Assembly (NCBI GenBank): GCA_922989275.2
Contig: OV277869.1
Coordinates: 3,153,190-3,217,189, forward strand
DNA: 64,000 nt
Reading direction: 5' to 3'
Source of the DNA: Gari tellinella
Lineage: Eukaryota > Mollusca > Bivalvia > Cardiida > Psammobiidae
Made by a program: the position numbers and the translations under genes. Under the pieces are notes generated by a model that worked only from the letters and a program-made list of their open reading frames with translations, ran no database searches and was not told the DNA's origin. Positions 6,489 through 33,452 of this stretch are shown here, piece by piece. The first letter of the stretch is position 1; each line of letters opens with the position of its first letter.

Positions 6489-6678
6489 ATGGGGGATTTA
6501 GAAGAATACATTTTTGATGAGGATGGTAACCCCATTAAGTGTCCTTACCCTGAACATGTCAATGTTTTTGAAGACGAAGAGGATAAGAAGGATATTTTTC
6601 ATATAAAAGGGGACGGATATGACGTCATTTTGTCCCTGTCTCGGGGACTCATCACCTGGAGCAATGTCAACCCCTCAG
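6489..6678 (+). CDS. CERKL: CERKL coding exon 1
   Basis: Encodes residues 1-63 and the first base of codon 64. It starts MGDLEEYIFDEDGNPIK and includes GDGYDVILSLSRGLITW, matching the first strands of the PH-like domain of ceramide kinases. The donor is CAG|GTACGT. The ATG has G at -3 and +4, and an in-frame stop lies 7 codons upstream. Confidence 0.85.
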
Positions 6679-9600
6679 GTACGTACAACTTTTATCCCAT
6701 TATCACTTTTACTTTATAATTAATTTTTACTGATCAAACTGTTAAACTCATTCACCCTTGACACTTCAAATAGACAATTCCAGTTTTCAATCAAGACTAG
6801 TCCATTTTAAGGGTGCTTTTAATAGTATGTTGCAAAATAACAAACAGTGCAAACCCAGACCAGATCACAGGGACCCGGCACGATTGATTTTTGAGATAAA
6901 ATGTTTTCAAAAGGTATATATAGAGACAAGGGGTACAACTTATTGTTAGTATATTCTCAACCTATCTCGACAAAAGTGGTCATATCACGAATAATAATTG
7001 ATGAAACGACATCCTTTTTGCATTTCTGTCTAGCTAATATAATACCCATCCATAAAAACATAACATAAAACCAACTGTAAGGATGCACTTTCAACAGTAT
7101 TTGCATTTACTCACAGAAATCAACGACTTTTGGAAAACGGGACAGGTGTTCGTTCACTGCTAACACAGCATTGACCACTACTGTATGCTTGTTTAGGCGG
7201 TAATCGAGTGTTACAGTCATTGACAACTGCTGTACGCTTGTTTAGGCGGTAATATCGAGCATGACAGTCATACAGTTCCATAAATATACAGCTTTGACAC
7301 CGATCAAAGCTGATTTCTTCTCAAATCATTGCCGTACCAAAAAAGCCTACATGTACAAGAAGAGCTTTACTGCCGATGAAAACATGCAAATTTGTTGTTG
7401 GTATTGCAATGGTTTGAGTATAAATCAGCTTTGTTCGGTGTAAAAAATGGATATCCATGGAACTGTATGACTGTCATGTTCGATATTACCGCCTATACAA
7501 GCACACAGTAGTGGTCAATGCGGTTTCAGCTGTGAACGAACACCTGTCCCGTTTTCCAAAAGTCGTTGATTTCTGTGAGTAAATGCAATTACTTTTGAAA
7601 GTGCATGCTTACAGTTGGTTTTATGTTATGTTTTTATGGAAGGGTATTATATAAGCTAGACAGAAGTGCAAAAAGGGTGTCGTTTTATCAATTATTATTT
7701 ATGATATGCCCGGTTTTGTCGAGATAGGGTGAGAATATACTAACAATAAGTTGTACCCCTTGTCTCTATATATACCTTTTGACAATTTTTTCTCTCAAAA
7801 ATCAATCGTGCCAGGTCCCTGTGGACCAGATGACTTATATAGCTCTGATCAGAGTCTACACTGTTAGATATATATATACATGTATATAGGACAAGTACAC
7901 TCTTCACAGTTCAGTATGTACAGTAAAACCTCTCTATTACGACCACTAAAACGAAGGATAATTCATAGTATAATAGACAGGTGATAGCTTAAAACAAGGT
8001 GACAGTGAAACAGAAAGCTCCTTAAGGAGCTTTCTGTTTCACTGTCACATTGCTTTAAACAGTCACCTGCCTTAAACACCCAATACTCAACAAAAAATAG
8101 TGGCCGTTATAAAGAGGTTCTACTGTAGTTCACAGATTGTTAATGACACATATACACCTGACTAAGAGTTAACGAGTTATTAGTAATTCTGACCTGAAGT
8201 TCAATAGAGCGGAACTCATACAGTTAAACCTCATGCAAGCGACACTCAGATCAACTTAACCCATTACCCCATAAATACACATTTTTACGCCTTTTATTTA
8301 TTCTTCCACTGAAGAAAATATTTCCATTTTATACAGTCATGAATGTGCACCATAAGAAATGTTTTCTTTATTCTAGCTGATGGTAGTTTAAAGCAGGCTG
8401 AAAGTAAAGCAGAATGCGCATTAAGGCGCATTCTGCTTTACTTTCAACCTGCTTTAAGAGATCACTTGTCTTCAAAACTTAAGAAACAGGCTATGGGGTA
8501 ATGGGTTAAAGCATCATTATAGCTCTTTCAGACAGATGACGGCTTAATCATTAACTCTTTCCTCCCTGAAACTTTAAATGGACAATTCCAGTTTCCATTT
8601 TAGTCCAGTCCATTTCAGACTTTTAAGGGTTGTTTTTGTCAATGTTTGGCATTATGACAAACAGTGAACACCCTGATCAGAGGGCTCCTTTCAGAGCCCT
8701 CTGATCTGGGTGTTCACTGTTTGCACAGGATAAGTGTGTAATTTACATTTACACTGTTTGAAAAGGACGCCTATAGGTGGGACTAGGGCTCAAAGGGTTA
8801 ATGCAGGAAATAAACAGAAGCCCCTCATATAATATTTCTGAATTACCTTTATCCTGCATTAAAGCAGTCACCTACCTTAATAGATAAAAAGTAAAAAAGT
8901 AATATACATGTACCAAGTTAAAGTCTACTTTCAGTCCGAATGACCGCTCAGCCGACTGTACATATACTCTGCATTCTCAGGGCTCAAGATACAGGGAGTA
9001 TTTCAAAAATTAAAATCTTTATATCTGTGTTAAACCCTATGATGTCACTACTCATTAGAATCGTCTCTTCGAAATTTGGTGCTGAAATAAGTGAGGTAAT
9101 GTTGGATTTGCAGTTTACTCCCTCTAAATATCTAGAGACCTGCTCTGTTTTATTGTCTGCTCGCTCAAGAGTACTACTAGCAATGAATACAAGATATAGC
9201 CAAAAACTTAAAGCTGACATATTGCAATTGTTTGTAAGAACATACAAATAAATAAAGGCTCATAATGGAGAAATTACTGTCAGCAATTTATATTGCATGC
9301 ATGTTTATTGGTGGATTGTTGGCATTAATTTGCTGAGACTGATGAATTAATTTAAATCCTTCAGAACCTGGTGAGATTTCACAAAACTAACAATTAATAT
9401 GCCAACAGTTGGATCTAAATAAGACAGACTATGAAAATCAATGAGTATCTATACTCATTGGCTAATAAAATATGGGAACAATCTTGGGAAAGAGTCGTAA
9501 ACTCATGTAAGACAAATTCTTGTTACACTGTTTTCAAAAAGCGTCAATATAGATGTAGGCTATAAACCTTAATCTAGGTAAGCGCAACTCGGCTAATATG

Positions 9601-12600
9601 TGCAAACAGCTTGGATCCAGATCAGATGCCGCATGATGTCATCATGTGGCGTCTGATCTGGATCCAAGCTGTTTGCCACTCATATCAATATTTTCTCAAG
9701 TTTAGAAAAATACAATTTTTTTTTAATTATTATCTTTTTCTAAGAGTGTGTATTTTTAGCAGAGGACAATTCAACATGATATGGACTCAACCCATTACCC
9801 CATAGTCTGTTTCTAGCTTTGGAGACAGGTGACCAGGTAAAGCATTCTGCTTTAATTACAGCCTGCTTTAAGCTATCATCTGCTACAAGATTGTAGCAAA
9901 TATTTCTTATGGTGCATTATTCAATTATAAACTATGGGAAAAATAATGTTAGACAAATCCTTGTTGCACTATTTTCAATAAACGTCAATACAGATAGGCA
10001 GGGAAGGATATATAGTGCAATTGACTAAATGTTGCAGGGTTATAGTGTAGGACTCTGCATTGATTGAGAGGATATTCAGCCTACCCGGACTACACTGGGA
10101 GCCGTTCAGGCGAGAGTTATTGAATACCCGAGTCTTTTCTTGTTGAGATTGTATCACTAATGTTGGTATTGATTTATTGGATATATGTTTTTCAGCTCAA
10201 CCCTTTCCCTACATATACCCACATGTGCAATTAAAGTACTCAAATAAGGTGATATATTAAAGCAGGATGAAAGTAAAGCAGGAAGCTCCTGTAAGAGCTT
10301 CCTTCTTTACTTTCACCTTAATCCTTTAAGAATTCAAGCGCCTAAGTATGTCTACATTAAAGAAAGCAATCTTCACGTAGAAAGTCCTACATGAATTCAA
10401 TATAAAGCACAGACAGTATTTCCAGTATCTTTCCTTAGTCTGAAAAATAAATTCCAGATGGAAGCATAACATGGTTTAAGGTAAAGCAGAATGCTCCTTA
10501 AGGAACTTTCTACATTTCTTTCAACCTGCTGTAAGCAATCACCTGTCTTCAGTTTTAGAAGCAGCTATAGGGTAAAGGGCTTTAGGAAAAAAACTGGAGT
10601 AATTTTTAACAAACAAACTCCAGAAATTCTGACTGTGTGCCACTCAGATGAGAGCAGTTTATGAATATAGAAATTCCTCTCCATTACAACCACAAAACAG
10701 AAGGCTAATTGAATGTATATTAGTCAGGTAACTGCTGAAAGTAAAGTGACAGTAAAATAAGGAGCTTTCTATTATACTGACACCTTGTTTTAAGCAGTCA
10801 TGCCTGTCTGAAACACCTATTAACCCATTACCCCATAGACGGTTTCTAGTTTTGAAGATAGGTGACCTCTTAAAGCAGGTTGAAAGTAAAGCAGAATGCG
10901 CCTTAAGGCGCATTCTACTTTACTTTCAGCCTGCTTTAAGCTATCATCTTCTAGAATATAGAAAATATTTCTTATGATACATATTCATGACTGTAAAAAT
11001 TGGACCTATTTTCTTCAGGGTAGGAAAAAATCAAAGTCGTAAAAAAGCGTATATATGGGGCTAATGGGTTAATGCACACAATTAAGTGGAGGTGCTACTG
11101 TGCCTTAACCCTTTCAAAACTAAATTCTTTGTGGGTTATCAGGTTCCCTTGTGGATCTATTTAATTACCAAAACATGAATCAGTTTACTTAGATTTATGG
11201 GTTGTTTAATAAATACTGATCTGAATTAGGTTCCTGCATGAAGGAGCCCTCTTATCTGGTTCTACACTGTTTGCATTTGTGTGTAATTTATGAGTATATT
11301 TTGAATATGGTCCATGGTATTGAAAGAGTTAAAGCTTCCTTGTTTCTGAAGATAGTCTCACTTATATTGTTATTGATTTATTGAACAATTGTAGTCAGCT
11401 TATACCTTTGGGGGTATGCATTGGGGGTACTGTATCCAATAATTGGTGGCAAACAGTTTGAATCCAGTTCAGGTCCAAACAATGTTAGAAATACAATCAA
11501 TGTTATATCAGAAATGTATAGGTAATATCAGGGCTCAGGATAAGAGGGAGTAAATCGATTAAATCTAACATTTTCTTACTCATTTTAGCCTCAAATCCTA
11601 TGGTTTTACTACTCATTAGAATCGTCTCCGAGAGACGATTCTAATGAGTAGTGACTAGTGACACCATAAGGTTTAATTCAGAAATAAAGATAATACCCCC
11701 ACACCTTATCTGGAGCTCTGTCAAAGAACAGTTTATTTCATTATTAGAGACTTGTCATGATTTCAACATGAAATACATACAACATTCATTTCAATTCACA
11801 TAAAACCATGCCATTCAAAAAAGAATTATAAGAGACTATATGCATAATGTAATTATCACAATAATATTCATTGCAAAAGATGTCTTTATATTTGCAGGTA
11901 AGAAGAAAGGGATCTTTAAGAAGAACAAACATGCAGACAAGCAGACTGTTATGCTGCGGGACGTGTTTGGAGTCGGTATCAAGAGGAAGAAAACAGCAAA
12001 TACTCAAAACAGCACGTCAGATGCCAAGGAAGGAATATGCTTAGGTTTGTATTTGTTATGTCTGATGAATTACGTGCTTTCAGAAGTAGAATGGAATATT
12101 CTATCAATCGATGTCATTTGGTAACTCTTTCCTCCCTGAAACTTTAAATGGACAATTCCAGTTTCGATTTTTGTCTAGTCCATTTCTGGCTTTTAAGAGT
12201 TGTTTTTGTCAATTTTGGCATTACTGACAAACAGTGAAGACCCTGATCAGAGGGCTCCTTTCGGAGCCCTCTGATCTGGGCCTTCACTGTTTGCACAGGA
12301 CAAGTGTATTATTCACATGTTCACTGTTTGAAATGACGCCTATAGGCGGGACTAGGGTTCAAAGGGTTAAAGTTTTACTCTTTTTTTCAATGCAAAGGGA
12401 GGTAATTTGAAAAATCACACTTTTCAAACTGCCAAGAAATGTTTCTGCAAAATTACAGTAGCTTTCAATGTTATTGCTAACATTCATGAAATAAACATGA
12501 CTGACACCTCCTTTATGACTTGTAAAGCAGTTGCAATAAATTGGGGGTAACCTCCCTTTATAAAATAGGATATATCTTTTTGTGTCTTATGACGTTTAGA

Positions 12601-15600
12601 TGTTTATGTCATTATGCAATATTGAGAGATAAAATTTACCACGCTGAGGTGGTTTTCACCCTATTTGAAAGTACAGTTAACCCGTATTATCCCATAAATA
12701 CGCATTTCTACGCCTTTTATTCAGTCCTTCATTGAGTAGAATAGTTCTAATTAAAAATACAGTCAAGAATATGTTCCATAAGAAATATTTTCTATATTCT
12801 AGCAGATGGTAGCTTAAAGCAGGCTGAAAGTAAAGCAGAATGTGCCTTAACCCTTTACCTCATAGCCTGTTTCTAGTTTTGTAGACAGATGACCACTTAA
12901 AGCAGGTTGAAAGTAAAGCAGAATGTGCCTTAAGGCACATTCTGCTTTACTTTCAGCATGCTTTAAGCTAAAATCTGCTAGGTTATATAAAATATTTGTA
13001 ATAGTAATTGTTCATGAGGGTATAAACGGGAACTATTTTCTTCAGCGGAGGAATAAATTAGATACGCTAAAAGTCGCTTCTATGGGGGAAAGGGTTAAGG
13101 CACATTCTGCTTCACATTCAACTTGCTTTAAGTGGTCACGTACCTTTAATACTAGAAACAGGCTATGGATTACCTAACTATTGTCTATTTTTAGGTTTTA
13201 ACCTACATGTAGTGGATCACTTTGGACCCAATGTTCTAAATGACCGTGTGATTCTCTTTGAACATCCCAGCGAGGCTCTTTGCAACAACTATGTGGCACA
13301 GATTGAGTTATTTCTATCTGGTAAGTATAGTCATGTGTAAAGCGGGGCTCCAGAAAAGTATGGGGAGTTTTTCAGAAAACAAAAATCTTTATGTCTGCAT
13401 TAAACCCTATGGTGTGACTCCATAGGATTTGGTTCTAAAATGAAGGGGATTATGTTGATTTTATTCAGTTTACTGCCTCTTATCTGGAGCCCTGTAATTA
13501 AAACTATCAATAATAGAGAGCCCCTATAGGAGACCTCTGATCAGGGTCTACCCTGTTTGCTAATTTTGTAGTAGTTTTGATTAAAGTACCCACAAATTCC
13601 GAGTTAACTGATTCACATTTTGGTATTTAAAAAGATCCACAAAGGAACTAGATAACCAACAAGATTTACTTAGTGTTGAGATAATATGAAATTATTGCAT
13701 TCGCTCAAATCTTATATATTGTATTTCCACCCTGCTAGGCCTTTATGAAATATTAATCTTGTAGACAAATTTTACACATCATATTTTGGCTAAATACGTC
13801 CTTCCCTTAAATTCAAATGGTTAATTTGCCAATCATTTTCTGTCATTCTTTTTGCATGAACACTAAAACAAATGCATTTGTTATATTTTTCTGTTTCCAT
13901 TTGTTATATATTCAACTCCAACTCTTGCCTTACTAGTTGTGAAAGGTGAAATACTTTACAAAGAGAGACAAATACATGTGTGTCAAACAAAAATACTTGA
14001 TTGCACGTCATCATAAAACACTGGTAAGAATATACATGTATCAGTTCTTAAATATTTGTTACTGAACACTTCCAACATGAATGTGTGGAATAATTAACCC
14101 ACCTCTATATTTGACATAGGCAAACAGTGTAGACTCTGATCAGAGGCCGCATTATGCGGCGTCTGATCAGAGTCTACACTGTTTGCTGATAGGAATTTCA
14201 ATATAAAACAAAATGAAAATTTTGACCAGGCATCCCTTTGATAAAAAATGGACTAATCCAATATATAAACATGGAAGAATCCACTGGGCGCATAATGTGG
14301 TATTTGACACATACATCTAGATCTATTAACACCCCCCCCCCTTTAAATATATAGTAAAAAAAACATTTTTTTTTTTAAAAAAGGGGGGAGGGGTGTTAAT
14401 TTAATAGATCTAGATGTATGTGTCAAATACCTGTGGAAGAATCCACTTGGCACAAAAGGGTTAATAATCTGTTATTTGTTTACAGAGCTGAGAACGAGGC
14501 CCAAGTATATCAAGCTGTTTCTCCAACCGTATGCGGGAGCCCCGGTAAAGGGTAAAACAGTCTACAAGAACAAGGTGGTACCGTTGTTTGAAGCTGCAGG
14601 TGTCAACATAGACTGTGTCGGTATGTACAGTTTTAATATATATACAGTGGAGAAGACGTTATTCTTTCCCAATAAATGTGTTTATGCTAAAATCATTATG
14701 TCCATTGCAAACAGTTTTGAGCCAGATCAGACGCCGGGTAACCCGCGTCTGATCTGGCTCAAAACTGTTTGCCACTCAGATTATAAAAACAATTCAAACA
14801 TTTCTAGAAATTGTATGTTTCTACATTTTATTGAACTCATTTGCAGAACAATAAGGTCTTCTCTACTGTACATGTCTTCTGTTGAGGCATGTGCCTCTAC
14901 AGGGCTGCCATTTCTCCGGATTTTTTCCCAGTTCATGGTAGCTTAAAGCAGGCTGAAAGTAAAGCAGAATGCGCCCTAAGGCGCATTCTGCTTTACTTAC
15001 ATCCTGCTTTAAGTAGTCGCATGTCAATAAAACAAGAAAAAGGCTATGGCTATGGCTATGTACCGATTCGTAAAATCGCACTTGAAAAATGCAAATTTAG
15101 AAATCTTAGGATTTTTCATGTCAACTTATGGCAGCCCTGCCTCTATTATTGAAAATACGGTATTTATGAAGTAAAGGGTTAAGTAGTTGGTTTTGAGGTT
15201 TTAGACTGTAATTGAGTTTAGAGTTTTCACTAACTATTTCAGAGCTGGAACACAATGAACACATCAAACAGGAGATGTGCCATATAAACCTTGAGGATTT
15301 TGACTGGTTAGTAAATCTATTTCTTATAGTGAATATTCATGACTACAAATTGGAAATATTTTCTTCAGTGAAGGAATATATTATAGGTGTATTCATGGAT
15401 TAACACATTTAACCCTATCAAAGAGTATACTCATCATTCACAAACAATGTACATGTGAGGAGTGCAGTTGTTCTATGCAAACAATTCCTTAAGGAGCCCC
15501 TGTTCAGGATCTCCACTGTTTGTCATTTTCCAACATATTTTTAAAATCAGTCATAAAAACTTATAAACTCTTTCAACACTAAGTAATTCATGTTGGTTTT

Positions 15601-18600
15601 TAGGTTTCCTAGTGGATCATTTTAGTAACCAAAACATGAACTAATTAACTTGGAGTTCTCGGTTTAGGTTAATAAATACTGGTCTAAATTAGCAAACGAT
15701 GCAGACCCTGATCAGGGTCTACACTGTTTGCAAATGTAATTAGTATATTTTGAACAAGTCCATGGTGTTGAATGGGTAAATTTTAAACTGGAATGCTCCA
15801 TTTAAAGTTCCAGTGGTGAATGAGTTAACCCTTTGAACCCTAGTCCCGCCTATAGGCGTCCTTTTCAAACAGTGTACATGTGAATAGTACACTTGTCCTA
15901 TGCAAACATTGAGGACCCAGATCAGAGGGCTCCGAAAGGAGCCCTCTGATCAGGGTCTTCACTGTTTGTCACAATGCCAAACATTGACAAAAACAACCCT
16001 TAAAGTCAGGATTGAACTAAACTAAAATGGAAACTGGGATTGTCCATTTAAAGTTCCAGTGGTGAATGAGTTAACACAATTCTGATTGTAGTTTCTCTTC
16101 CTTGTGACTTTTACAGTGTTGTTGCCATGGGAGGGGACGGTACAGTAAACAAGGTGGCCAACGGCCTCCTCAACAACTCACAGAAATGTAAAGACGTGGA
16201 AATCAAGCCAGGTTTTACACCTGTACGGGCCAGGACACCTCTTGGCATAATACCCACTGGTACGTTCCTAAACACACTTAGTCCTAGCAAGGAGCATACT
16301 GGTCAGTAGCAAATCTCTCTATTACAACCACTAAATTGTCTTAATTATTAGGTATGTAGGACAGGTGACTGCTTAAAACAAGGTGAAAGTAAAACAGAAA
16401 GCTCCTATAGGAACTTTCTGTTTTACTGTCACCTTGCTTTAATCTGTCAACTTGCTTTTATACAATCAATAAGACTTCGTTTTAGTGGTCTATAATAGAA
16501 AGGTTTTACTGTATTTTGAAAAGGTCCTTGTCAAGTAAGGGAGTTTCAAACCTTTTCAGGGCTCAAGATAGGAGGAGTATTTGAAAAACAAAAATCTTTA
16601 TTTCTACATTAAACCCTATGATGTAGCTGCATGCTCATTAGAGTTGTCTCTTTGAGACGATTATAATCCAATAGTAACACCATAGGATTTGGTGCTAAAA
16701 TGAGTGAGAAAATGCTGGATTTGTTCTGTTTACTCCCTCTTAAATGGAGCCCTACCTGCAATTTGTGATAAGGGGAGTTTTTCAAAAACTAGAATATTTA
16801 TTCTGCATTAATTAAACCCTATGGTGTCACTACTCATTAGAATTATCATCTTAAAGAGACAATTCTAATGAAAAAAGTAACATCAAAGGATTTGGTGCTG
16901 AAATGAGTGAGCTTACTCCCTCTTATCTGGAGCCCTGCCTTTTGTGTTTTAAGTACAACCAACAATGTAGCCCAGACTGTCCATGGCACTGACGATATAG
17001 TCAAACCTTTTATGTTTCAGGTACGACCAATGATATATGTCGTACTCTCCATGGCACTGACGATATAGTCACAGCAGTTCTTCACATCATCATGGGCAAT
17101 AGAATGGGAGTGGATATATGTTCCTCATTCAAGCAGGAGACGTTTCTCCAGTGGTTCTTTAATGCCCAGTATGGGTTTGCAGGAAATGTACTATTTTATC
17201 GACATCGCTACAAGTCTATTGGCAAGCGTGCATTAGAACCAGGATTTATCAAAGCCTTGACTAAAGCAAAATTCAGGTGAGAGGTTTGAGAATTCATTTT
17301 CAATTTAACCCATAACCACATAGTATATATTTTTAGTTTTGAAGATAGGTGAACGATTAAAGCAGGTTGAAAGTACAGCAGAATGTGCCTTAAGGTGCAT
17401 TCTGCTATACTTTCAGCCTGCTTTAAGCCACCTTCATTTAAGATATGAATTATAATTTTATGAAGCATATTCATGACTGTATAAAATGAAATGTTTTTTT
17501 CAGTGAAGGAATAAACTAAAGACGTAAAAATGTGTATCTGTGGAGAAAATGTGTTAAAGAGACTCGCAACCAGATTTAGCATTAAAAATAGTAATTTGAA
17601 AAATATGTGGCAAACGCTCATATAAACGGGTAAGAATTAGTTTAGGATAAGAAATTCTGTTTAAAAAATGCATTTCAATAAAAAAAGATATTGAGCTCTG
17701 GTGGGAATCGAACCCGGGACCTGGCATGCGTGGACAGAAGGCAAAATAAGGAAACCACTTAAACCACTGTGCTACCCAACCATTCATATATCTGGATCGA
17801 TTTAAAGTATTTTTCTGTGTGGCGATGGAGAGTAAATACCACTCCATAATTCGGCTCGGGTTTTTGTCTGAGCCCGTGATCAATTTCTATAGCGTCTTTC
17901 GACGCTATGGATAAAACAATGGAAAATATCTAAAAAACTAAGATTTGAAGACTTTTCTAGAGGGTGTTTTTAGACTGGCCATATTTTCCCAATGCCAGAT
18001 GCACGATAATGCTACCCTTTTGGTTATATTTGAGTATTTTCTTTTATTTTTGCAAATACACCATCTGGTTGCGAGTCGCTTTAAGGTTGTTATAATGGGA
18101 AATACAGTGTTTCCTCCCTATAAAGGCCCTCCCAACAGTGACTCCCTTCTTACTACAAGGTCAGGGCTGCCATAAGTTGACATGAAAAATCCTAAGATTT
18201 CGAAATTTGCATTTTTCAAGTGCAATTTTACGAGTTGTACCTTTACCCCATAACCTATTTCTAGTTTTGTTGACATGCGACTACTTAAAGCAGGCTGTAA
18301 GTAAAGCAGAATGCGCCTTAGGGCGCATTCTGCTTTACTTTCAGCCTTCTTTAAGCTACCATGAACTCGGAAAAAATCCGGAGATTTAGGAAAAATCCGG
18401 AGAAATGGCAGCCCTGCAAGGTTTGCTGCTGCTTCCCAAAAAAGACATTTATGTGTAAACACTTTAACTGTTGCAATACTGCTTCAACTTGTCGTCTGTT
18501 CTATTTACTGTTGCAATACTGCTTCAACTTGTCGTCTGTTCTATTTACTGTTGCAATACTGCCTCAACTTGTCGTCTGTTCTATTTACTGTTGCAATACT

Positions 18601-21600
18601 GCCTCAACTTGTCGTCTGTTCTATTAACTGTTGCAATACTGCTTCAACTTGTCGTCTGTTCTATTTACTGTTGCAATACTGCCTCAACTTGTCATCTGTT
18701 CTATTTTATCAAAGTTACATTTTAGTGGACATTTTGACATAAGAAATATAATGACAAGTGACAAACACTTTGAATCCAGATCAGACGCCACGTGATGCTG
18801 TGTCTGATCTTGATACAAGCTGTTTGCAAATGAAAGCCAACTCTTTTTTTTGCCTCCCTATAACAACTCCAGAGCTCCAGATAAGAGGGAGTAAACTGAA
18901 CAAATTCAAAATTATCTCACTCATTTCAGCACCAAACCCTATGGTGTTACTACTCATTAGAATCGTCTCTTCGAGACGATTCTAATGAGTAGTGACACCA
19001 TAAGGTTTAAAGCAGAAATAAAGATTTTAATTTTTGAAATACTCCCCTTATCTGGAGCCCAGCAACTCCCTTAGAATAACACACAATCTTTGTCTCCTGT
19101 TGGGTATTGTTGTAGAGAGGGAGCACTGTAATGCCATTTTGTCCCATTTTTCGCCTATGTGGGATAGAGATTTGCCCTGTGGGGAATCACTCTATCCTCC
19201 ATACCACATGACGTCTTTTATTGTTTGCCGAGTTTAACCACAAGCGCTGCATGAGGCGAGTAATTAAATGACATCTCGAGGGCTTGGTGCAAAACTATTG
19301 TAACTCCCTCACAATTCTTTTCTGATGACGTTACTATAAACAATGTCATGTTTTGGCAGGAAAAAAAGTACACACAAACCGCAATTATTTCATTATGTAT
19401 ATAATTTTTTAATGATTTAAATGGGAGAAAAAAAATCCACCATTCGTTTTGTTGATGTAGGATAGGAATTTCTCCCCCTTTGGCCAGTGAATTCACGCAG
19501 GGACTCTGCAAGCCTCTTCCCTGCATGAATTTTTTTACCCTCGGGGGAGAAAATTCCTATCCTACATCAACACTCATGGTGGATTCTTATAATCCCCAGT
19601 GTCCTGATCTAGCCTGTCTATTATTCTAGGTCGTACAAGTGTGATGTTGAGTATATTCCCTGTCAGACCGAAGTCCCAGCCAACAGACAGTACCTAGAGT
19701 GTTACAGAGGGTAAGATAATACTTTAGTATTGAGTCATATTAAACAATAACCCTATAGCCTGTTTCTAGTTTCTGTAAGATAATTATGTCTTATCAATTT
19801 AACCCATTATTAGCCTGTTTCCAGTTTTAAAAACAAGGAACTTATAATTAAAGCAGGTTGAAAGTAAAGCAGAACAAAACGGAACTATCTTCTATAGTGG
19901 TGGAATAAATTAAATGCGTACAATGCATTAAAGCGACTCGCAACCAGATGGTGCATTAAAAATAGTAATTTGTAAATATGTGTCAAACGCTTATATAAAT
20001 GGTAAAGAATTAGTTTAGGATAAGAAATTCTGTTTAAAAAAATGTATTTCAATAAAAAAAAATTATTGGTCTCTGGTGGGATTCGAACCCGTGGCCCGGC
20101 ATTGGCGGACAGAAGGCAAAATAGGGGAAACCGCTTAGACCAATGGACCACGGAACTATTCGTTTATCTCGGATCGATTTAACGTATTTCAATGTGTAGC
20201 GGTCGAAAGTGCATACAACTTCGTAATTCGGCTCGTGTTTATGTCTGAGCCCGTGTAGAGAAGCAACAACAACAACTATACCGTCTACTAGTCGGTATAG
20301 AAAAACGATGGAAAATATCTAAAAATCTAAGATTCGGTGACGATTCTTGAGACTTTTTTTGGACTGATCATATTTGTTTAATGTCAGAAGCCAAATAATG
20401 CCACAAATTTGCTTTTATTTGAGTATTTTATTTTATTTTGACAAGTACACCATCCGGTTGCGAGTCCCTTTAAAGCAGGCTGAAAGTAAAGCAGAATGCA
20501 CTTTAAGCCTCCAAAAGGCTAAGATATAGAAATACGTTGTTATGTTACATATGCATGACTTCATAAATTGGAACTATTTTCTGTAGTGGCAGAATAACAT
20601 AAAAGCATAAAAAGGGTATAAAAATGGGTTAAATGATACGAACCATGTCATGAGAAAACCATAGTCAATGTTTTAAAATGCAAATATGGTAGCCTAATTC
20701 AGGATAAAAGTAATGCAGATTGTTCATATAGGTCTGTCCCATGTTATATGTTTGTTACAGTGGAGAATCTGTTATTCTTTCCCGTTTAAACGCAAACGCA
20801 AAGCACTAAAACGTAGAAAAGAGCAATTTTTGGACAATTCTGATAATTCTTGTTTATCTTGGTGGAAAACAGTTTGGAGCCTGATCAGACGCCGGGTTAC
20901 CCGGCGTCTGATCTGGCTCCAAACTGCAAATAATAGTTTTAGCGTAAACGCGTTTATTGGGAAAGAATAACAGATTCTCCACTGTAGCGTTACTCACCTT
21001 ATCACAGTGCTCAATAAAGAAGATGACATTTTTTTCCTATTTTCTGGTATTTATTTTTATTTACACAATTTTTTATTTATTAAACAAGCATTGTACACAA
21101 TCAGTACACATACATTTCATTCAACATTCATATCCAACAAAGATTGTTTACCAATGCAAAAAGCAAACAGAGTAACACATAGAGAAAGACGACAATGTGA
21201 AAGAAATAACCATATTTCATTTGGCAAGAATATTTGGGAGGCAAATCTATTTTTGAATTAAAGCTAAAATTGTATTGTCATGAATACAATTAGTTTAATA
21301 GTTAGTGGTGACAGTAGAATCTCTTTATTATGACCACTTTAATTATTGGGTTAATTACTGGGTGTAAAAGACAGGTGCCTGCTTTAAACAAGGTGACAAT
21401 AAAAGAGAAGGCTCTTTTAGGAGCTTTGTGTTTTACTGTTGCCTTGCTTTAAGCTGCCTTATACAATCAATTAGCATTCCATTTAGTTTTACTCTTCTAA
21501 TGGTTTAGGTGTGATGTATGCTGGACGAAGAGGTATTGTGTAGTCTATTTATCCTAGTTACTAATGTTGTAGGTGTTATCTATGCTGGGTATGGGAGTTA

Positions 21601-24600
21601 ATGTTTAGACTATATACATGTACCCTGGTTACTAATGTTGTAAGTGTTATGTATGCTGGAATGAGAGTTAATGTTTAGTCTATATACCCTGGTTACTAAT
21701 GATGTAGGTGTGATGTATGCTGGTATGAGAGTTAATGTTTAGTCTATATACCCTGGTTAGTAATGTTGTAAGTGTTATGTATGCTGGAATGAGAGTTAAT
21801 GTTTAGTCTATATACCCTGGTTACTAATGTTGTAAGTGTGATGTATGCTGGAATGAGAGTTAATGTTTAGTCTATATACCCTGGTTACTAATGTTGTAAG
21901 TGTTATGTATGCTGGTATGAGAGTTAATGTTTAGACTATATACATGTACCCTGGTTACTAATGTTGTAAGTGTTATGTATGCTGGTATGAGAGTTAATGT
22001 TTAGACTATATACCCTGGTTACTAATGTTGTAAGTGTTATGTATGCTGGAATGAGAGTTAATGTTTAGTATATATACCCTGGTTACTAATGTTGTAAGTG
22101 TGATGTATGCTGGTATGAGAGTTAATGTTTAGTCTATATATACCCTGTTTACTAATGTTGTAAGTGTGATGTATGCTGGTATGAGAGTTAATGTTTAGAC
22201 TATGTACCCTGGTTACTAATGTTGTAAGTGTTATGTATGCTGGTATGAGAGTTAATGTTTAGACTATATACCCTGGTTACTTATGTTGTAGGTGTGATGT
22301 ATGCTGGTATGAGAGTTAATGTTTAGACTATATACCCTGGTTACTAATGTTGTAAGTGTTATGTATGCTGGTATGAGAGTTAATGTTTAGACTATATACC
22401 CTGGTTACTAATGTTGTAAGTGTTATGTATGCTGGTATGAGAGTTAATGTTTAGACTATATACCCTGGTTTCTAATGTTGTAGGTGTGATGTATGCTGGT
22501 ATGAGAGTTAATGTTTAAACTATATACCCTGGTTTCTAATGTTGTAGGTGTGATGTATGCTGGTATGAGAGATAATGTTAAAACTATATACCATGGTGAC
22601 TAATGTTGTAGGTGTGATGTATGCTGGTATGAGAGATAATGTTTAGACTATATACCATGGTTACTAATGTTGTAGGTGTGATGTATGCTGGTATGAGAGT
22701 TAATGTTTAGACTATATACCCTAGTTATTAATGTTGTAGGTGTGATGTATGCTGGTATGAGAGTTAATGTTTAGTCTATATACCCTGGTTACTAATGTTG
22801 TAAGTGTGATGTATGCTGGTATGAGAGTTAATGTTTAGACTATGTACCCTGGTTACTAATGTTGTAAGTGTTATGTATGCTGGTATGAGAGTTAATGTTT
22901 AGACTATATACCCTGGTTACTTATGTTGTAGGTGTGATGTATGCTGGTATGAGAGTTAATGTTTAGACTATATACCCTGGTTACTAATGTTGTAAGTGTT
23001 ATGTATGCTGGTATGAGAGTTAATGTTTAGACTATATACCCTGGTTACTAATGTTGTAAGTGTTATGTATGCTGGTATGAGAGTTAATGTTTAGACTATA
23101 TACCCTGGTTTCTAATGTTGTAGGTGTGATGTATGCTGGTATGAGAGTTAATGTTTAGACTATATACCCTGGTTTCTAATGTTGTAGGTGTGATGTATGC
23201 TGGTATGAGAGATAATGTTTAAACTATATACCATGGTGACTAATGTTGTAGGTGTGATGTATGCTGGTATGAGAGTTAATGTTTAGACTATATACCCTAG
23301 TTATTAATGTTGTAGGTGTGATGTATGCTGGTATGAGAGTTAATGTTTAGACTATATATCCTAGTTACTAATGTTGTAGGTGTGATGTATGCTGGTATGA
23401 GAGTTAATGTTTAGACTATATATCCTAGTTATTAATGTTGTAGGTGTGATGTATGCTGGTATGAGAGTTAATGTTTAGACTATATACCCTGGTTACTAAT
23501 ATTGTAGGTGTTATGTATGCTGGTATGAGAGTTAATGTTTAGACTATATACCCTAGTTATTAATGTTGTAGGTGTGATGTATGCTGGTATGAGAGTTAAT
23601 GTTTAGACTATATATCCTAGTTATTAATGTTGTAGGTGTGATGTATGCTGGTATGAGAGTTAATGTTTAGACTATATACCCTAGTTATTAATGTTGTAGG
23701 TGTGATGTATGCTGGTATGAGAGTTAATGTTTAGACTATATATCCTAGTTACTAATGTTGTAGGTGTGATGTATGCTGGTATGAGAGTTAATGTTTAGAC
23801 TATATACCCTAGTTATTAATGTTGTAGGCGTGATGTATGCTGGTATGAGAGTTAATGTTTAGACTATATATCCTATTTATTAATGTTGTAGGTGTGATGT
23901 ATGCTGGTATGAGAGTTAATGTTTAGACTATATATCCTAGTTATTAATGTTGTAGGTGTGATGTATACTGGTATGAGAGTTAATGTTTAGACTATATACC
24001 CTGGCTACTAATGTTGTAGGTGTGATGTATGCTGGCATGAGAGTTAATGTTTAGACTATATACCCTAGTTATTAATGTTGTAGGTGTGATGTATGCTGGT
24101 ATGAGAGTTAATGTTTAGACTATATACCCTGGTTACTAATGTTGTAAGTGTGATGTATGCTGGTATGAGAGTTAATGTTTAGACTATATACCCTGGTTAC
24201 TAATGTTGTAGGTGTGATGTATACTGGTATGATAGTTAATGTTCAGTCTATATACCCCGGTTACAAATGTTGTAAGTGTGATGTATGCTGGTATGAGAGT
24301 TAATGTTTAGACTATATACCCTGGTTACTAATGTTGTAGGTGTGATGTATGCTGGTATGATAGTAAATGTTCAGTCTATATACCCTGGTTACTAATGTTG
24401 TAAGTGTGATGTATGCTGGTATGAGAGTTAATGTTTAGACTATATACCCTAGTTATTAATGTTGTAGGTGTGATGTATGCTGGTATGAGAGTTAATGTTT
24501 AGACTATATACCCTGGTTACTAATGTTGTAGGTGTGATGTATGCTGGTATGAGAGTTAATGTTTAGACTATATACCCTAGTTATTAATGTTGTAGGTGTG

Positions 24601-27600
24601 ATGTATGCTGGTATGAGAGTTAATGTTTAGACTATATACCCTGGTTACTAATGTTGTAAGTGTGATGTATGCTGGTATGAGAGTTAATGTTTAGACTATA
24701 TACCCTGGTTACTAATGTTGTAAGTGTGATGATTGCTGGTATGAGAGTTAATGTTTAGGCTATATACCCTGGTTACTTATGTTGTAGGTGTGATGTATGC
24801 TGGTATGAGAGTTAATGTTTAGACTATATATCCTGGTTACTAATGTTGTAAGTGTTATGTATGCTGGTATGAGAGTTAATGTTTAGACTATATATCCTAG
24901 TTATTAATGTTGTAGGTGTGATGTATACTGGTATGAGAGTTAATGTTTAGACTATATGCCCTGCTTACTAATGTTGTAGGTGTGATGTCATCTTGCTTTA
25001 AGCTGTCTGTTATACAATCAATTAGCCGTCTATTTAGTGGTTGTATTAGAGAGGTTTTATTTTGTACTATTGTTTTATGTGTGGTGTATGTTGGAATGAG
25101 AGCTATTTTTTAGTCTTTTTACTCTGGTTACTTAGGTTTTAGATGTACTATATAATACCAAGAGACCCAGCAACAACAAACCCTGTCGGTGCAAAGCTTA
25201 AGCTTTGCACCGACGGCGTTTGTTGTTGCTGAGTCACTCGGTTTGTACGTTACAAATGGTGGCAGCGGTGGGATAATGACAACTGCCGGAATGGAGATGC
25301 CTTACCCACGGTGTTCCCAGGGTCCAAGTCTCGGGACGAGACTTCTCGGAGGGGAGAATTATGTAATGTACGTAGTACCTTAGTATATGCAAATGAGGCT
25401 TCCCAAACCGATGTATGTTGGGAAATAGAGTCAATTATATAGCGCAACAAACATCTCTTGGGGTGAGCTTAAGCTTTGCACCGACAAGGTTTGTTGTTGC
25501 TGGGTCACTGGGTTTGCACGTTACACTATTATAATGTTGTAGGTGTGATGTATGTTGGAACGAGACTATATCAGAGGAAGACGAAGTAGTCCAGGATCTT
25601 GTACAGCCGTTTGACCCTCTCGCAGAATCACATGAGAAAGATTCCCTTGTTGGTATGTGGTTTCTGTCTTTTTTTAAGAAATAATAAATCCATACCAGTT
25701 TTTTATCGTGCAATTGAACACTCAGGTAGGAGTTGAAATGCGTAGTAATTTAATCACGAGGCCTTTAGGTATTAATTTATTATTTCGATTCTGACACATA
25801 ATTTAACCTTAATTTGCACCGAAGCAACGGCGCTACATTTCTTGGCGTACGCATTTTCGAAGCCATATGCCGTCACTTTAGAACGTTTTAGCGTGTGAGT
25901 GGTCTATTGAAAATTCAAACACTAAAACGTTCGTTCTTTGATTATATAGGGGCGTGCGTGAAGTGTGTTAGAATATATATTTTTGGAAGGTGAGTGGTGA
26001 GTGGGAAGGGGAATGTTTTAGCCCTTTCCTCCACAGCCTAAAATGCAAATCACTTACAATGCTCCCTTCCTATAAAGGCCCTCTGAACAATGATTCCCTC
26101 ACAAAAATGATCACAGCTGTTCTTCAAAAAAGATCATTATGTCTAAATCTTTCACTGCTGCAGTATAGTCTGCTGAAAATTGTATTATGCTGTTTTTCTC
26201 AAAGTCTTATGTTGGACATTTTGACAGAAAAAAAAGAACGATGGACAAACAGTTTGAATCCAGATCAGCCGCCGCTTAATGCTGCGTCTGATCTGGATTC
26301 AAGCTGTTTGCAAATGTTAGCTAACTTCCTTCCCTACAACAACTCCCTCCAAACAACGCACACAATCTTTGTCACCCATAGGGTGTTATTGTAGAGAGGG
26401 AGCACTGTGTATCCAAACAAGATGAAGCAAAGCAGAAAGAACATTGCGTTGCTACTGTTTACGCTATTTCCAGATCATGTGTACAGAACATGTGAAGAAT
26501 CAGGGCAAACTAGTGTTAACCCTTTACCCCATAGCCAGTTTCTAGTTTTGAATACAAGTTACCCCTTAAAGCAGGTTGAGAGTAAAGAAGAATGCGCCTT
26601 CGGGCGCATTCTGCTTTACTTTCATCCTGCTTTAAGCAACCATCTGCTAGGATTAAATATAACAATATTCCAAATAGGGAATTAAAATAATGTTAATTTA
26701 TAAAACTGCTCTTTTCTACTATTTCAATCTCTAAGGACCTTTTTCAAAGAAAATCAAGAGGTCGAAATATTAGAAAAGAGTAGTTTTATAAATTAATAGG
26801 ATTAAATATATTTCTTTTGGTACATTTTCATGACTGTAAAAACTGGGAACTAATTTCTACAGTGAAGGAATACATCAAGTGCGCTAAAATGTACTTCTAC
26901 GGGGAAAAGGGCTAACACAGGTGGGTTTTTTGGGGCCTTTTCTATAATTTATCTGTTGTTTGTCCTCAGATCTTGCGGAGCTTGAAGAAACACCATGGAA
27001 GACTGTAAAAGGGGACTTCTTGAATGTTTGTCTGTTTACAATACCTGGTCGCAGTGAGCTGGCACCTCGAGGGTTAAGCATGTATACGCATCTAAATGAC
27101 GGAGCCATCGATTTAGTGTTGATAAAAGACGCACCACGAAAAGAGTTCATACGAGTGCTAAAACGGCTTGCAAATTCAAAATACCAGGTTTGTTGATTTC
27201 AGAATGCATGCAAAGAGTTGATTTCAGAATACATGCATTTTGTCTAAAAGTTAATGGGTAATCTAAAGAATAATGTTCATAAAAACAGCATACTTTTATG
27301 TCCAATACTATGGAAAGTTAATCATAAGAATTTTTGCATTGCAATTTGATGGTAAATAACTTTATTGGTAGGGTTTTAGTGTTTAACCCATTCAGCCGTA
27401 GAAGTTGGTGAGTAAATAGACTTACTTTTCAAGAGCTAGTTGGTAAAACAGCGATGCCTCTCTACAACAACACCCAATGGGAGACAACGAGTATGTGTGT
27501 TGTTCAGAGGGAGTCGTTATAGGGAAGGAAGTTGGTTTATATTTGCAAACAGCTTGAATCCAGATCAGACGCCGCGTAACGCGGCGTCTGATCTGGATTC

Positions 27601-30600
27601 AAGCTGCTTGTCACTCGTCACTAAGTTGTTTTTCTGTCAAAATGTTCAATATGTAACTTTGAGAAAAACAGCAGACGACAATTTTCAGCAAACGATATTG
27701 CAGCAGTAAAATCGTTAGACATAGTTGTCCTGTTTAGGGAACTACGACAAGGGTCGTAGTTTGGAGGGAGTTGTTGTTGGGAGGGTCGTTGTAGAGAGGG
27801 AGCGCTGTAGTTTCAGTCACTTTGCAAAGAATAAGGTCTTCGATCCACACTGTGGCTACTATAGGTTAATGCATTGTCTTCTTTCAGTTTGATTTCCCAT
27901 TCATTGAAGTAATTCGAGTGAAAGAAGTGAAATTCAAACTTCGTCTGGCAACTGGATACCGTTACAATGACAAAAACTTTAGTGAAATTGAGTATGAAAT
28001 GCAACGACAAAAACAAGTGGGCAGTTCTGTAAGCAAGTCCATGGAAATATTAGAAATTGACGATTTTAGTGATGATGATGATGATGATGATTCGGATGAT
28101 AATGTGAAACCTAAAAATGGAAAATCTACGCCAACAGACTTTGTGCAATCTATATCATCTAAATCAGACAAACCAAAGCCATTTAAGCGATCGCAGAGCT
28201 TTCAGCCAGTTTTAAAGAGGACAAACACAGAGCCAACTATAGACGTAGTTCATGATCTGACGGACTCTGATCTAGACTCTGATGACAGTGAAAACGGTGG
28301 GGAAATTGTGGTAAGGAGGTGTCACTTATATTTACCCATTACCCCATAAATACCCCTTTTTACGCCTCTAAATTATTCCTCCACTGAAGAAAATAGTTCC
28401 AATTTATACAGTTGTGAATATTTAAAATTAGAAATAATATCTATATTCTAGTAGCTGGTAGCTTAAAGCAGGCTGAAAGTAAAGCAGAATGTGCCTAAAG
28501 GCACATTCTGCTTTACTTTCATTCTGCTTTAAGTGGTCACCTATCTTCTATACTAGAAACGGGCTATGGGATAACGGATTAAGGGCCACACATCTTGGGT
28601 GGGTGCCCACTGGTTAGGGCTGTACATGGGCAGTTATTTCCTACATGATACCTATCCCGATATTTCATTTTCACTACGATGCATATCACAATACGTATTG
28701 CCTATGAGATTAAAAGGCAATGTGTATTGCAATATTTAAGTCGTGATACAATACATATCATGATACAGATGTTTAAATATAAACACAACAGTTGTTAGTT
28801 TGAAACCATGGCCGTGCACCCTGATTGCTTTAATTAAATACGTATATTTACAACTATATCTAAAGTAAAAAGTATGATGTTTGAAAAGGTATTTTCCCTT
28901 CAAACAGTATCATTATACCACTACATCAGTTACTTAAAAATTGATGCCTGCAAAACAAGATGTTAAATCTTGGCCAAGTTTGATAATCACGTAGGATTAA
29001 GCCCCTTGAATTACTAGAGATTGTCAGTTTTAACTCTTTGCATGCTGGGTAATATTTTCGTCTGCAAAAATTTGTCATCTAGCTGCTATCGTTCTAAAAC
29101 TGGAATTTTCAAAATTTCTTTTAAATTCAGTGTCAGAATAGCAAACAGTTTGGATCCTGATGAGACGACGCATTACGCGGCGTCTCATCTGGATCCAATC
29201 TGTTTGCAGACGTAATCACTATGGCGGGTATATCCGCCGCTAGCATGCAAAGAGTTATCCTTGTCCGCTCTGTAACTCTAATAATTGAAGTTTGTCTGTG
29301 TTTCAGTCTATTGGTGCCAATGGTGTCCGGACAGTAAGATCAGCATCAGCAGCAAACCAGATGTTAGTCGGACCCCAGTATAGAATGACCTTTGCAGAGA
29401 TGGACAGAGCAAAGCGGAGAAAGAGGGCAGAGAAGAAAGAAGACAAGAAGAAAAAGAAAGAAGAGAGTAAAAACAGAGCTCTGTGGAATATTGATAATGA
29501 GATGAAGAATGAAGATGCTTTGGAATTTAGGTAAGAGAAAAGCAGAAATCTCATATTTTACTCTTTTGTGTTAAAATATATTTTCTCCTACACTATGGCG
29601 TAAGCCTTTGTCAAAAACTTGTAAATTCCTGCAACTCCCGTTAACACTTTTTAGCTCGACTTTTTCGAAAAGTCGAGCTATTGTAGTCACCCTGTCGTCT
29701 GCGTCAGCGTCTGCGTCAGCATCTGCGTCGGTTAAGTTTTTTGCTTAAGGTTTTTGTAAGAGTTGATTTCTCAATAACTATCAAAGGTATCCATTTGAAA
29801 CTTGGAATAGTTGTTCAGTATCAAAAGGGCAACTCATTGCAACAAGGCAGGTAACCCTGGGATTTGTCTTTTCAGAGTTATTGCCCTTGTTTCATTTGCT
29901 TAAAAAATAAAAATTAACATAACTCAATAACTATCAAAGGTATCCATTTGAAACTTGGAATAATTGTTAAGAAATAACAGGGCAACTCATTACAACAAGG
30001 TAGATAACCCTGGGATTTGTCATTTCAGAGTTATTGCCCTTGTTTTATTTACTTAAAAATTGTAAATGAACATATCTAAATAACTATGAAAGATATTAAC
30101 TTGAAACTTTAAATAGTTATTCAGTATCAAAAGGGCAACTCATTACAATAAGACAGGTAACCCTGAGGTTTGTGTATCCAGAGTTATTGCCCTTGTTTTA
30201 TTGACTTCAAAGTTATAAATTAACATATCTAAATAAGTATGAAAGATATTAACTTGAAACTTTGAATACTTGTTAAGTATTAAAAGGACAACTCATTACA
30301 ACAAGGTAGGTTACTCTGTGATTGTAATTCCAGAGTAATTGCCCTTGATTTATTTACTTAAAACTTGAAAATTGCAATATCTTAATAACTGTCAAAGGTA
30401 TTAACTTGAAACTTTAAATACTTGTGTTATATCAAAAAGGCAACTCATTCAAACAAGAAAGGTGATCGGGGATGTGCCATTCCAGAGTTATTGCCCTTGT
30501 TTTTATTTGCATAAAACTTGTAAATTGAAATTTCTCAATAATTACCATAGGTATTAACTTGAAACTTTGAATACTTGTTCAGTTTCAAAAGGGCATCACC

Positions 30601-31801: not shown

Positions 31802-32525
31802 TCATCTGTAGAAACCAGATATCTTCACACTAGCCTCACTCAGCATGTAAATAACTCACAGTCGTGTCTACAAGAATATGATCATCTGTAGAAATCAGAC
31901 ATCTTCACGCTAGCTTCACTCAGCATGATGTGTCTACAAAGAATATGATCATCTGTAGAAATCAGAACATCATCCAGCATGTAGATATTTCACAGCTTCT
32001 CCTACCAAGAATATGTAAATGAGTAGAAATCAGACATCTCCACACTAGCTTCACTCAGCATGTAAGTAACTCACAGTTGTGTCTACAAGAATATGATCAT
32101 CTGTAGAAACCAGATATCTTCACACTAGCTTCACTCAGCATGTAAATAACTCACAGTTGTGTCTACAAGAATATGATCATCTGTAGAAATCAGACATCTC
32201 CACACTAGCTTCACTCAGCATGTAAGTAACTCACAGTTGTGTCTACAAGAATATGATCATCTGTAGAAACCAGATATCTTCACACTAGCTTCACTCAGCA
32301 TGTAAATAACTCACAGTTGTGTCTACAAAGAATATGAACTGACATCTCTATGTTAGCTTTATATAGTATGTACATATTTAAATCACTGCAGTGTCTACCA
32401 AGAATATAATCATCTGTAGAAATCAGATATCGATCTCCACACTAGCTTCAATCAGCATGTAAATAACTCACATCTGTGTCTACCAAGACATAATCATACT
32501 AGTTTCACTCAGCATGGTAACACCA
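31768..32525 (+). repeat. 80-bp minisatellite overlapping the CERKL stop codon and 3' UTR
   Basis: The unit is AACTCACAGTTGTGTCTACA, AGAATATGATCATCTGTAGA, AACCAGATATCTTCACACTA, GCTTCACTCAGCATGTAAAT. About nine copies are present, some with deletions. The first unit includes the coding end (AACTCACTGATGTGTCTACC, AAGAATATGA), so each later unit carries a relic of the last codons and stop. No clear AATAAA follows. Confidence 0.9.
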
Positions 32526-33235: not shown

Positions 33236-33452
33236 CAGTAAAACCTCGCTATTACAACCACTAAAACAAAGGCTTATTGATTGTATATATTAATATAATA
33301 TAGAGGGGAAGGATAAAGCAAGGTAACAGTGAAACAGAAAGCTCCTAAAGGAGCTTTCTGTTTCACTGTCACCTTGCTATAAGCGGTCACCTACCGTAAA
33401 CAACCATATATTTAACATAATTAGGTGGTCGTAATAGTGAGGTTTTACTGTA
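33236..33452. repeat. Family L MITE copy, complete
   Basis: TACAGTAAAACCTCGCTATT and AGTGAGGTTTTACTGTA ends. The hairpin core is GTGAAACAGAAAGCTCCTAA and complement. Confidence 0.8.

Follow-up and report, generated by a model that had tools for sequence, protein, structure and literature searches.

A probable mirage-type minisatellite copied from a splice junction of a CERKL-like gene in the bivalve Gari tellinella

RESULTS

The window analyzed here is a stretch of 64,000 nucleotides from the bivalve Gari tellinella (assembly GCA_922989275.2, contig OV277869.1, positions 3,153,190 to 3,217,189 of the forward strand). It contains a CERKL-like gene whose eighth intron holds a large minisatellite with a 64-bp unit. 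Positions are counted from the first letter of the window. The exons were mapped by tblastn with bivalve CERKL proteins, and exon ends were picked as GT or AG dinucleotides close to the matches; GT and AG ends are thus a criterion of the gene model. With its 12 introns removed, the coding sequence comprises 2211 bases (736 residues) and runs from ATG to stop with no internal stop codon. The closest proteins are the CERKLs of Mya arenaria and Ruditapes philippinarum (both at 61%); Dreissena polymorpha stands at 56%. An Rfam scan of 6000-33000 returned no match at the gathering threshold.

The host gene belongs to the ceramide kinase/CERKL family. An approximate exon chain used as query matched the Pfam domains DAGK_cat (E 2e-21) and CERK_C (E 5.8e-26). 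A search of solved structures gave five matches, all of them diacylglycerol or acylglycerol kinases or BmrU, at E 8e-7 or weaker. The CX3CX2C motif, reported to be important for the activity of rice and human ceramide kinase (PMC3069040), lies at C222, C226, and C229 of the query and is at least 90% conserved among 16 aligned sequences. DAGK_cat, CERK_C, and CX3CX2C together are the family's criteria. Intron 8 (19711-25542, 5832 bases) divides the motif: exon 8 ends with CYR plus GG, while exon 9 supplies the rest of the glycine codon and then CDVC. Both protein homology and the reading frame support exon 9 as a genuine exon.

Intron 8 carries a long tandem array of junction-like sequences. 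An earlier, sequence-only reading of this DNA had described about 54 copies of a 64-bp unit, and Tandem Repeats Finder (TRF) recovers the same array at period 64, with 54.3 copies and 93% matches. A motif search allowing up to five mismatches located 55 junction-like sites inside it, spaced by 64 bases except for intervals of 71, 70, and 66. The only sites elsewhere in the window were a degenerate one (25069) and the authentic one (25533), and the minus strand gave no match at up to four mismatches. The array was first thought to adjoin exon 9 directly. This needs correction: 554 bp separate the two, containing a partial copy of a repeat resembling a miniature inverted-repeat transposable element (MITE), a single degenerate unit, and an insertion.

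The repeat unit is a copy of the exon 9 splice junction. Without gaps, the unit consensus is identical to 25532-25565 at 31 of 34 positions, comprising 11/11 intronic and 20/23 exonic bases, so that the similarity crosses the exon 9 boundary. The 22 shared bases noticed earlier are likewise real, since the 22-mer AATGTTGTAGGTGTGATGTATG has 23 occurrences in the window: one is the true boundary (25533), and the other 22 are exact copies in as many of the 55 array units. The alignment score at the exon 9 boundary is 54, against 21 for the next best of the gene's 25 boundary stretches and a maximum of 24 over 300 shuffles; a control with the reverse complement, run across the entire window, reached 23/34 at best. 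These controls rule out chance similarity. A branch-point-like TACTAAT motif had also been noted upstream of the copied acceptor. In the five units inspected its branch A lies at -9, as it does in the TTATAAT of the real site. Among the 25 boundary stretches of the gene, the match is specific to exon 9, which supports the earlier reading that the array was built from the gene's own exon 9 acceptor.

Copying ran from the exon to the array. The exon-derived bases of the unit encode CDVCWYE, where the real exon 9 encodes CDVCWNE, and CDVCW forms half of the CX3CX2C motif. Five clam-type relatives have GCDVCWNE, GCDVCWHE, GCDTCWKE, GCDTCWTE, and GCDVCWNE at the same place. Because the unit encodes a coding motif that is conserved across clams, the exon must be the source, and the opposite direction, from array to exon, is ruled out. 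Three differences between unit and exon per 34 bases, in a gene that is still open, suggest that the array is not very recent.

The units fall into acceptor-type and donor-type copies. Units vary most at position 10, which is the last intronic G. AG is retained at the copied place in 34 of the 55 units, nearly always as AG/GT (33/34; the slash marks the splice point). The remaining 21 carry TTGTAAGT, in which AG has moved by one base (TAAG), only AAG is left one base on, and GTAAGT has been created; these units thus combine a weaker acceptor with a donor-like sequence. The earlier count of some 54 decoy acceptors is therefore borne out for junction copies (55), while the acceptor dinucleotide remains at the copied place in only the 34. 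The two types are interleaved, and the first 18 units of the array include 11 of the 21 that are donor-type.

The array has a homogenized core and diverged edges. Mean variation is 0.022 at exon-derived positions and 0.056 at intron-derived ones. Identity to the 64-base consensus is 51 and 34 in the first two units and 33 in the last; an indel in the second unit and truncation of the last lower the values of these two. The other 52 units score 58-64, except for 52 and 53 in two units with indels. Identity of the units to exon 9 showed no trend from one end of the array to the other (rho 0.12, p 0.38). A run of seven units returns ten units further along, no unit differing from its counterpart by more than one mismatch, which shows that a block of units was duplicated.

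The array matches the kind known as mirage minisatellites. These were described in amphioxus, in Adh3 and the globins BflGb6 and BflGb9 (PMC3087553) and in TnC, with PGBD5 similar (PMC3902484). As in the clam, they are minisatellite-like tandem copies over an intron-exon boundary whose true boundary is intact (PMC3087553, PMC3902484), with AG/GT signals in many but not all units and, in Adh3, a unit of 10-72 bp (PMC3087553). Four mirage features are open to a sequence test, and the clam array shows all of them: a boundary-spanning unit, an authentic boundary in an open gene, partial retention of AG, and the homogenized core with diverged edge units. The clam array differs in lying in a bivalve gene, in the 554 bp and inserted element before the exon, in its split into acceptor-type and donor-type units, and in its size, with 55 copies where the two BflGb6 haplotypes have 6 and 3. 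Among the matches listed from open-licence literature on splice-junction arrays (titles and abstract starts), none concerned a mirage-type array in a mollusc. The one molluscan gene-structure paper among these matches (PMC3862624) names minisatellites only in its reference list.

Tandem arrays are often misassembled, and the copy number, or the whole array, might be an assembly artefact. The BflGb6 mirage itself was apparently assembled aberrantly in the amphioxus draft. In the clam, however, the unit differences are patterned, a block is duplicated at a ten-unit lag, and the edges are diverged, as in real DNA. We regard an artefact as quite improbable.

The flanks point to a duplication that preceded growth of the array. 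A MITE-like piece followed by a unit-like stretch occurs at each array edge. Because such pieces flank both sides, we conclude that a repeat-plus-unit piece was duplicated. Relatives of the MITE-like repeat were found by blastn within the window at 7920-8126, 16304-16512, 33314-33451, and 46374-46505, with mutual matches on both strands. The insertion between array and exon 9 makes up the bulk of the sequence just upstream of the exon. Its left end (25157-25242) is near-palindromic, a stretch of 60 bp recurs in direct orientation (25195-25254 and 25466-25525), and ten to eleven bases, with a one-base gap, may be a target duplication.

We propose that the tail of intron 8, together with the initial 23 bases of exon 9, was duplicated as one segment beside a MITE-like element. 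Units between the duplicated pieces would then have multiplied to about 55, probably by unequal exchange or slippage and always within intron 8. The authentic junction has stayed intact, and splicing of intron 8 most likely removes the entire array.

The MITE-like copies on both sides of the array also raise the possibility that the 64-bp repeat was carried by a transposable element, its likeness to exon 9 having arisen by chance or by capture from elsewhere. Outside the array, however, the unit matches the window at E <0.01 only at 25065-25146 and at exon 9. The next match (13549-13571) has E 0.03, and none of the matches listed lies in another MITE-like copy. The matching stretch moreover includes the acceptor and the codons for the conserved CDVCW, and chance is excluded by the controls above. 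From the distribution of unit matches we reject a transposon-borne repeat within this window, and we consider that explanation extremely improbable.

Table 1. Features of the CERKL-like locus, in window positions; a slash marks a splice point
Feature	Position	Strand	Basis and remarks
CERKL-like gene, coding span	6489..31801	+	13 coding exons, 736-codon open frame
Exon 8	19630..19710	+	Donor AGG/GTAAGA; protein match and open frame
MITE-like repeat copy, left array edge	21311..21487		blastn within window, alignment; MITE-like label presumptive
64-bp mirage-type minisatellite	21497..24988	+	TRF; 55 copies of the junction: TAG retained at its copied place in 34 (AG/GT in 33), TAAG and GTAAGT in 21
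Partial second copy, end of same MITE-like repeat, right array edge	24986..25059		Direct repeat with left edge
Degenerate unit outside homogenized array	25065..25146	+	79% identical to consensus over 82 bp
Insertion between array and exon 9	25157..25525		Near-palindromic left end; possible target-site duplication ACTATATAAT and ACTATTATAAT
Source segment of unit	25532..25565	+	11 intronic and 23 exonic bases over exon 9 acceptor; 31/34 as in unit consensus
Exon 9	25543..25652	+	GCDVCWNETISEEDE...SLV, donor TTG/GTATGT; protein match and open frame
Last coding exon	31708..31801	+	Ends NSLMCLPRI stop; protein match and open frame
Second exon-derived minisatellite, 80/160 bp	31772..32488	+	TRF, sequence, alignments; unit contains last codons, stop codon, and 3' flank

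DISCUSSION

The array is probably an unusually large mirage-type minisatellite that is silently spliced out, and is likely to be harmless rather than a new control device. Amphioxus mirages vary in length, with somatic instability in Adh3 (PMC3087553), and are reported to leave splicing normal (PMC3087553, PMC3902484). The rival view is a splice rheostat, in which a fraction of transcripts would be spliced from exon 8 to array acceptors or pseudo-exons, meet early stop codons, and be destroyed, so that array length would set CERKL output. We consider this unlikely, though several of the observations below favor it.

Use of a copy as acceptor is predicted to end the protein early. The sequence-only reading had derived CDVCWYES and then a stop for a decoy entered in the phase of exon 8. 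This is correct for most acceptor-type units, of which 21 of 34 read exactly GCDVCWYES and 10 more give variants of it, for a total of 31 of 34. A different reading applies to donor-type units, where exon 8 continues into GVMYAGMRVNV and a stop (20/21, with a near variant in the other). The same reading held that the stop would truncate the kinase-like domain, but it would fall after the DAGK_cat match and before the CERK_C match, leaving the catalytic domain itself uncut. Decoy use would thus be expected to retain DAGK_cat and lose CERK_C.

Two acceptor models, each built from the 11 other acceptors of the gene, give conflicting results. In a position-specific model the exon 9 site ranks 2nd of 379 AGs (19730-25700) and none of 56 decoys, the degenerate copy included, reaches it. 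This counts against the rheostat, although the model is noisy (leave-one-out scores of 0.1 to 13.2).

A number of results weigh against silent removal. In a smoothed model, the true site is equalled or outscored by 31 of the 34 TAG decoys, or 32 of the 55 units. It places 62nd among the 379 AGs, and of the gene's 12 acceptors only that of exon 8 scores lower. When each intron's own site was left out of this model, the true acceptor came within the top five in nine introns but only 12th of 335 AGs in intron 1, 29th of 119 in intron 7, and 60th of 365 in intron 8. The scores of the two models taken together give no clear separation of the copies from the real site. The exon 9 acceptor has the fewest pyrimidines of the 12 between -18 and -4 (8/15, against 10-12). 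Downstream of 19 of the 34 acceptor-type units, a donor-type unit lies within 25-300 nt, giving 38 possible pseudo-exons, 36 of them with an in-frame stop, as the rheostat would have it from interleaved units. The donor-like sequences of the array score 5.3 (GTT/GTAAGT) and 7.5 (TAG/GTGTGA, the acceptor-type unit read as a donor), inside the range of the gene's real donors, two of which among 12 score 3.5 and 4.3.

Silent removal of the array might rest on poor exon definition. The copies end before the purine-rich part of exon 9 and are without its donor, which scores 9.7 against the 5.3 of GTT/GTAAGT. Over 37 bases, purines make up 59% of exon 9 past the copied part and 43% of the array. GA-rich motifs occupy six positions in exon 9 directly past the copied part and two in the whole array, a count biased by the choice of the motif set after exon 9 had been viewed. 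The exon-definition argument depends on this count, a point against silent removal. Exon definition is a reasonable candidate for the cause of silence.

Human ABCA7 provides a partial precedent for a rheostat. Like the clam array, the variable number tandem repeat (VNTR) in its intron 18 is large and intronic and has a splice dinucleotide in each unit. It is variable in length, and its length correlates both with skipping of the adjoining exon 19 and with lower expression (PMC5954066). The ABCA7 isoform that retains a VNTR unit did not itself vary with array length (PMC5954066), which counts against a rheostat. Unlike the clam unit, the ABCA7 unit is 25 bp long and starts with a donor dinucleotide, and the portion of the text covered does not call it an exon-junction copy (PMC5954066). 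A further related system is the gain of introns through tandem genomic duplication of AGGT, in which tandem copies of an AG/GT segment make paired splice sites (PMC3443670). The clam copies sit in an existing intron, with no sign of a new one.

The minisatellite of IFI6 (6-16) is said to supply multiple splice donor sites, rather than acceptors as in the clam array. The silence reported for amphioxus mirages argues against a rheostat in the clam. It is doubtful, in our view, that the copies truly compete as acceptors and, following a single G-to-A change, act as donors, such that unit number and type would set the amount of productive CERKL mRNA, and that mirages outside amphioxus would be a general source of length-dependent splicing control. 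CERKL output may be tuned by copy number, and the earlier view of the copies as decoys that are silenced, skipped, or tune output is an inference from the sequence.

The AG/GT copies could in principle also act as a recursive splice ladder. A unit used as acceptor would leave a GT donor, and the wrong choice would be erased by the next splice to exon 9. In 33 of the 34 acceptor-type units GT comes directly after AG, so the joined product would be unchanged. The regenerated donor AGG/GTGTGA scores 4.9 in a model whose training included the exon 8 donor, and that donor, when left out, scores 4.0. With the exon 8 donor left out for both, which is fairer, the scores are 1.5 and 3.5, respectively. 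The regenerated donor also agrees with the consensus at 4/9 positions, against 6/9 for the exon 8 donor, and an intron of 5832 bases is short for recursive splicing. We judge such a ladder very improbable.

A second minisatellite in the same gene is also exon-derived. It starts inside the last coding exon, and its unit scores 109 against the last-exon boundary, with a shuffle maximum of 20; here, the array physically overlaps the exon. We compared nine distinct arrays with the exon boundaries, out of 17 TRF rows, leaving out overlapping rows and units under 20 bases. The intron 8 array and the array at 31772-32488 are the clearly exon-derived ones. Two are marginal (41908, score 28 with a shuffle maximum of 23; 63880, score 18 with 17), and the other five have boundary scores below their own shuffled maximum. 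Because the second array involves no acceptor, the simplest common cause would be a copying process that is blind to splice function.

Two further features were observed in the window. Intron 7 contains a 40-bp tandem array (18467-18706, six copies, 97% matches) whose matching to exon boundaries is not above shuffles. On the minus strand, 49835-51094 holds an open frame of 420 residues.

This frame resembles a reverse transcriptase that has a GIY-YIG-like end, an arrangement known from Penelope-like elements.

The array described here extends mirage minisatellites from cephalochordates to a bivalve, with copies far above the globin examples. It provides a natural experiment on how the splicing machinery locates one true acceptor beside dozens of near-identical copies. 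Finally, the presence of two exon-derived minisatellites in one gene suggests that minisatellites in this genome may often originate from exon sequence.

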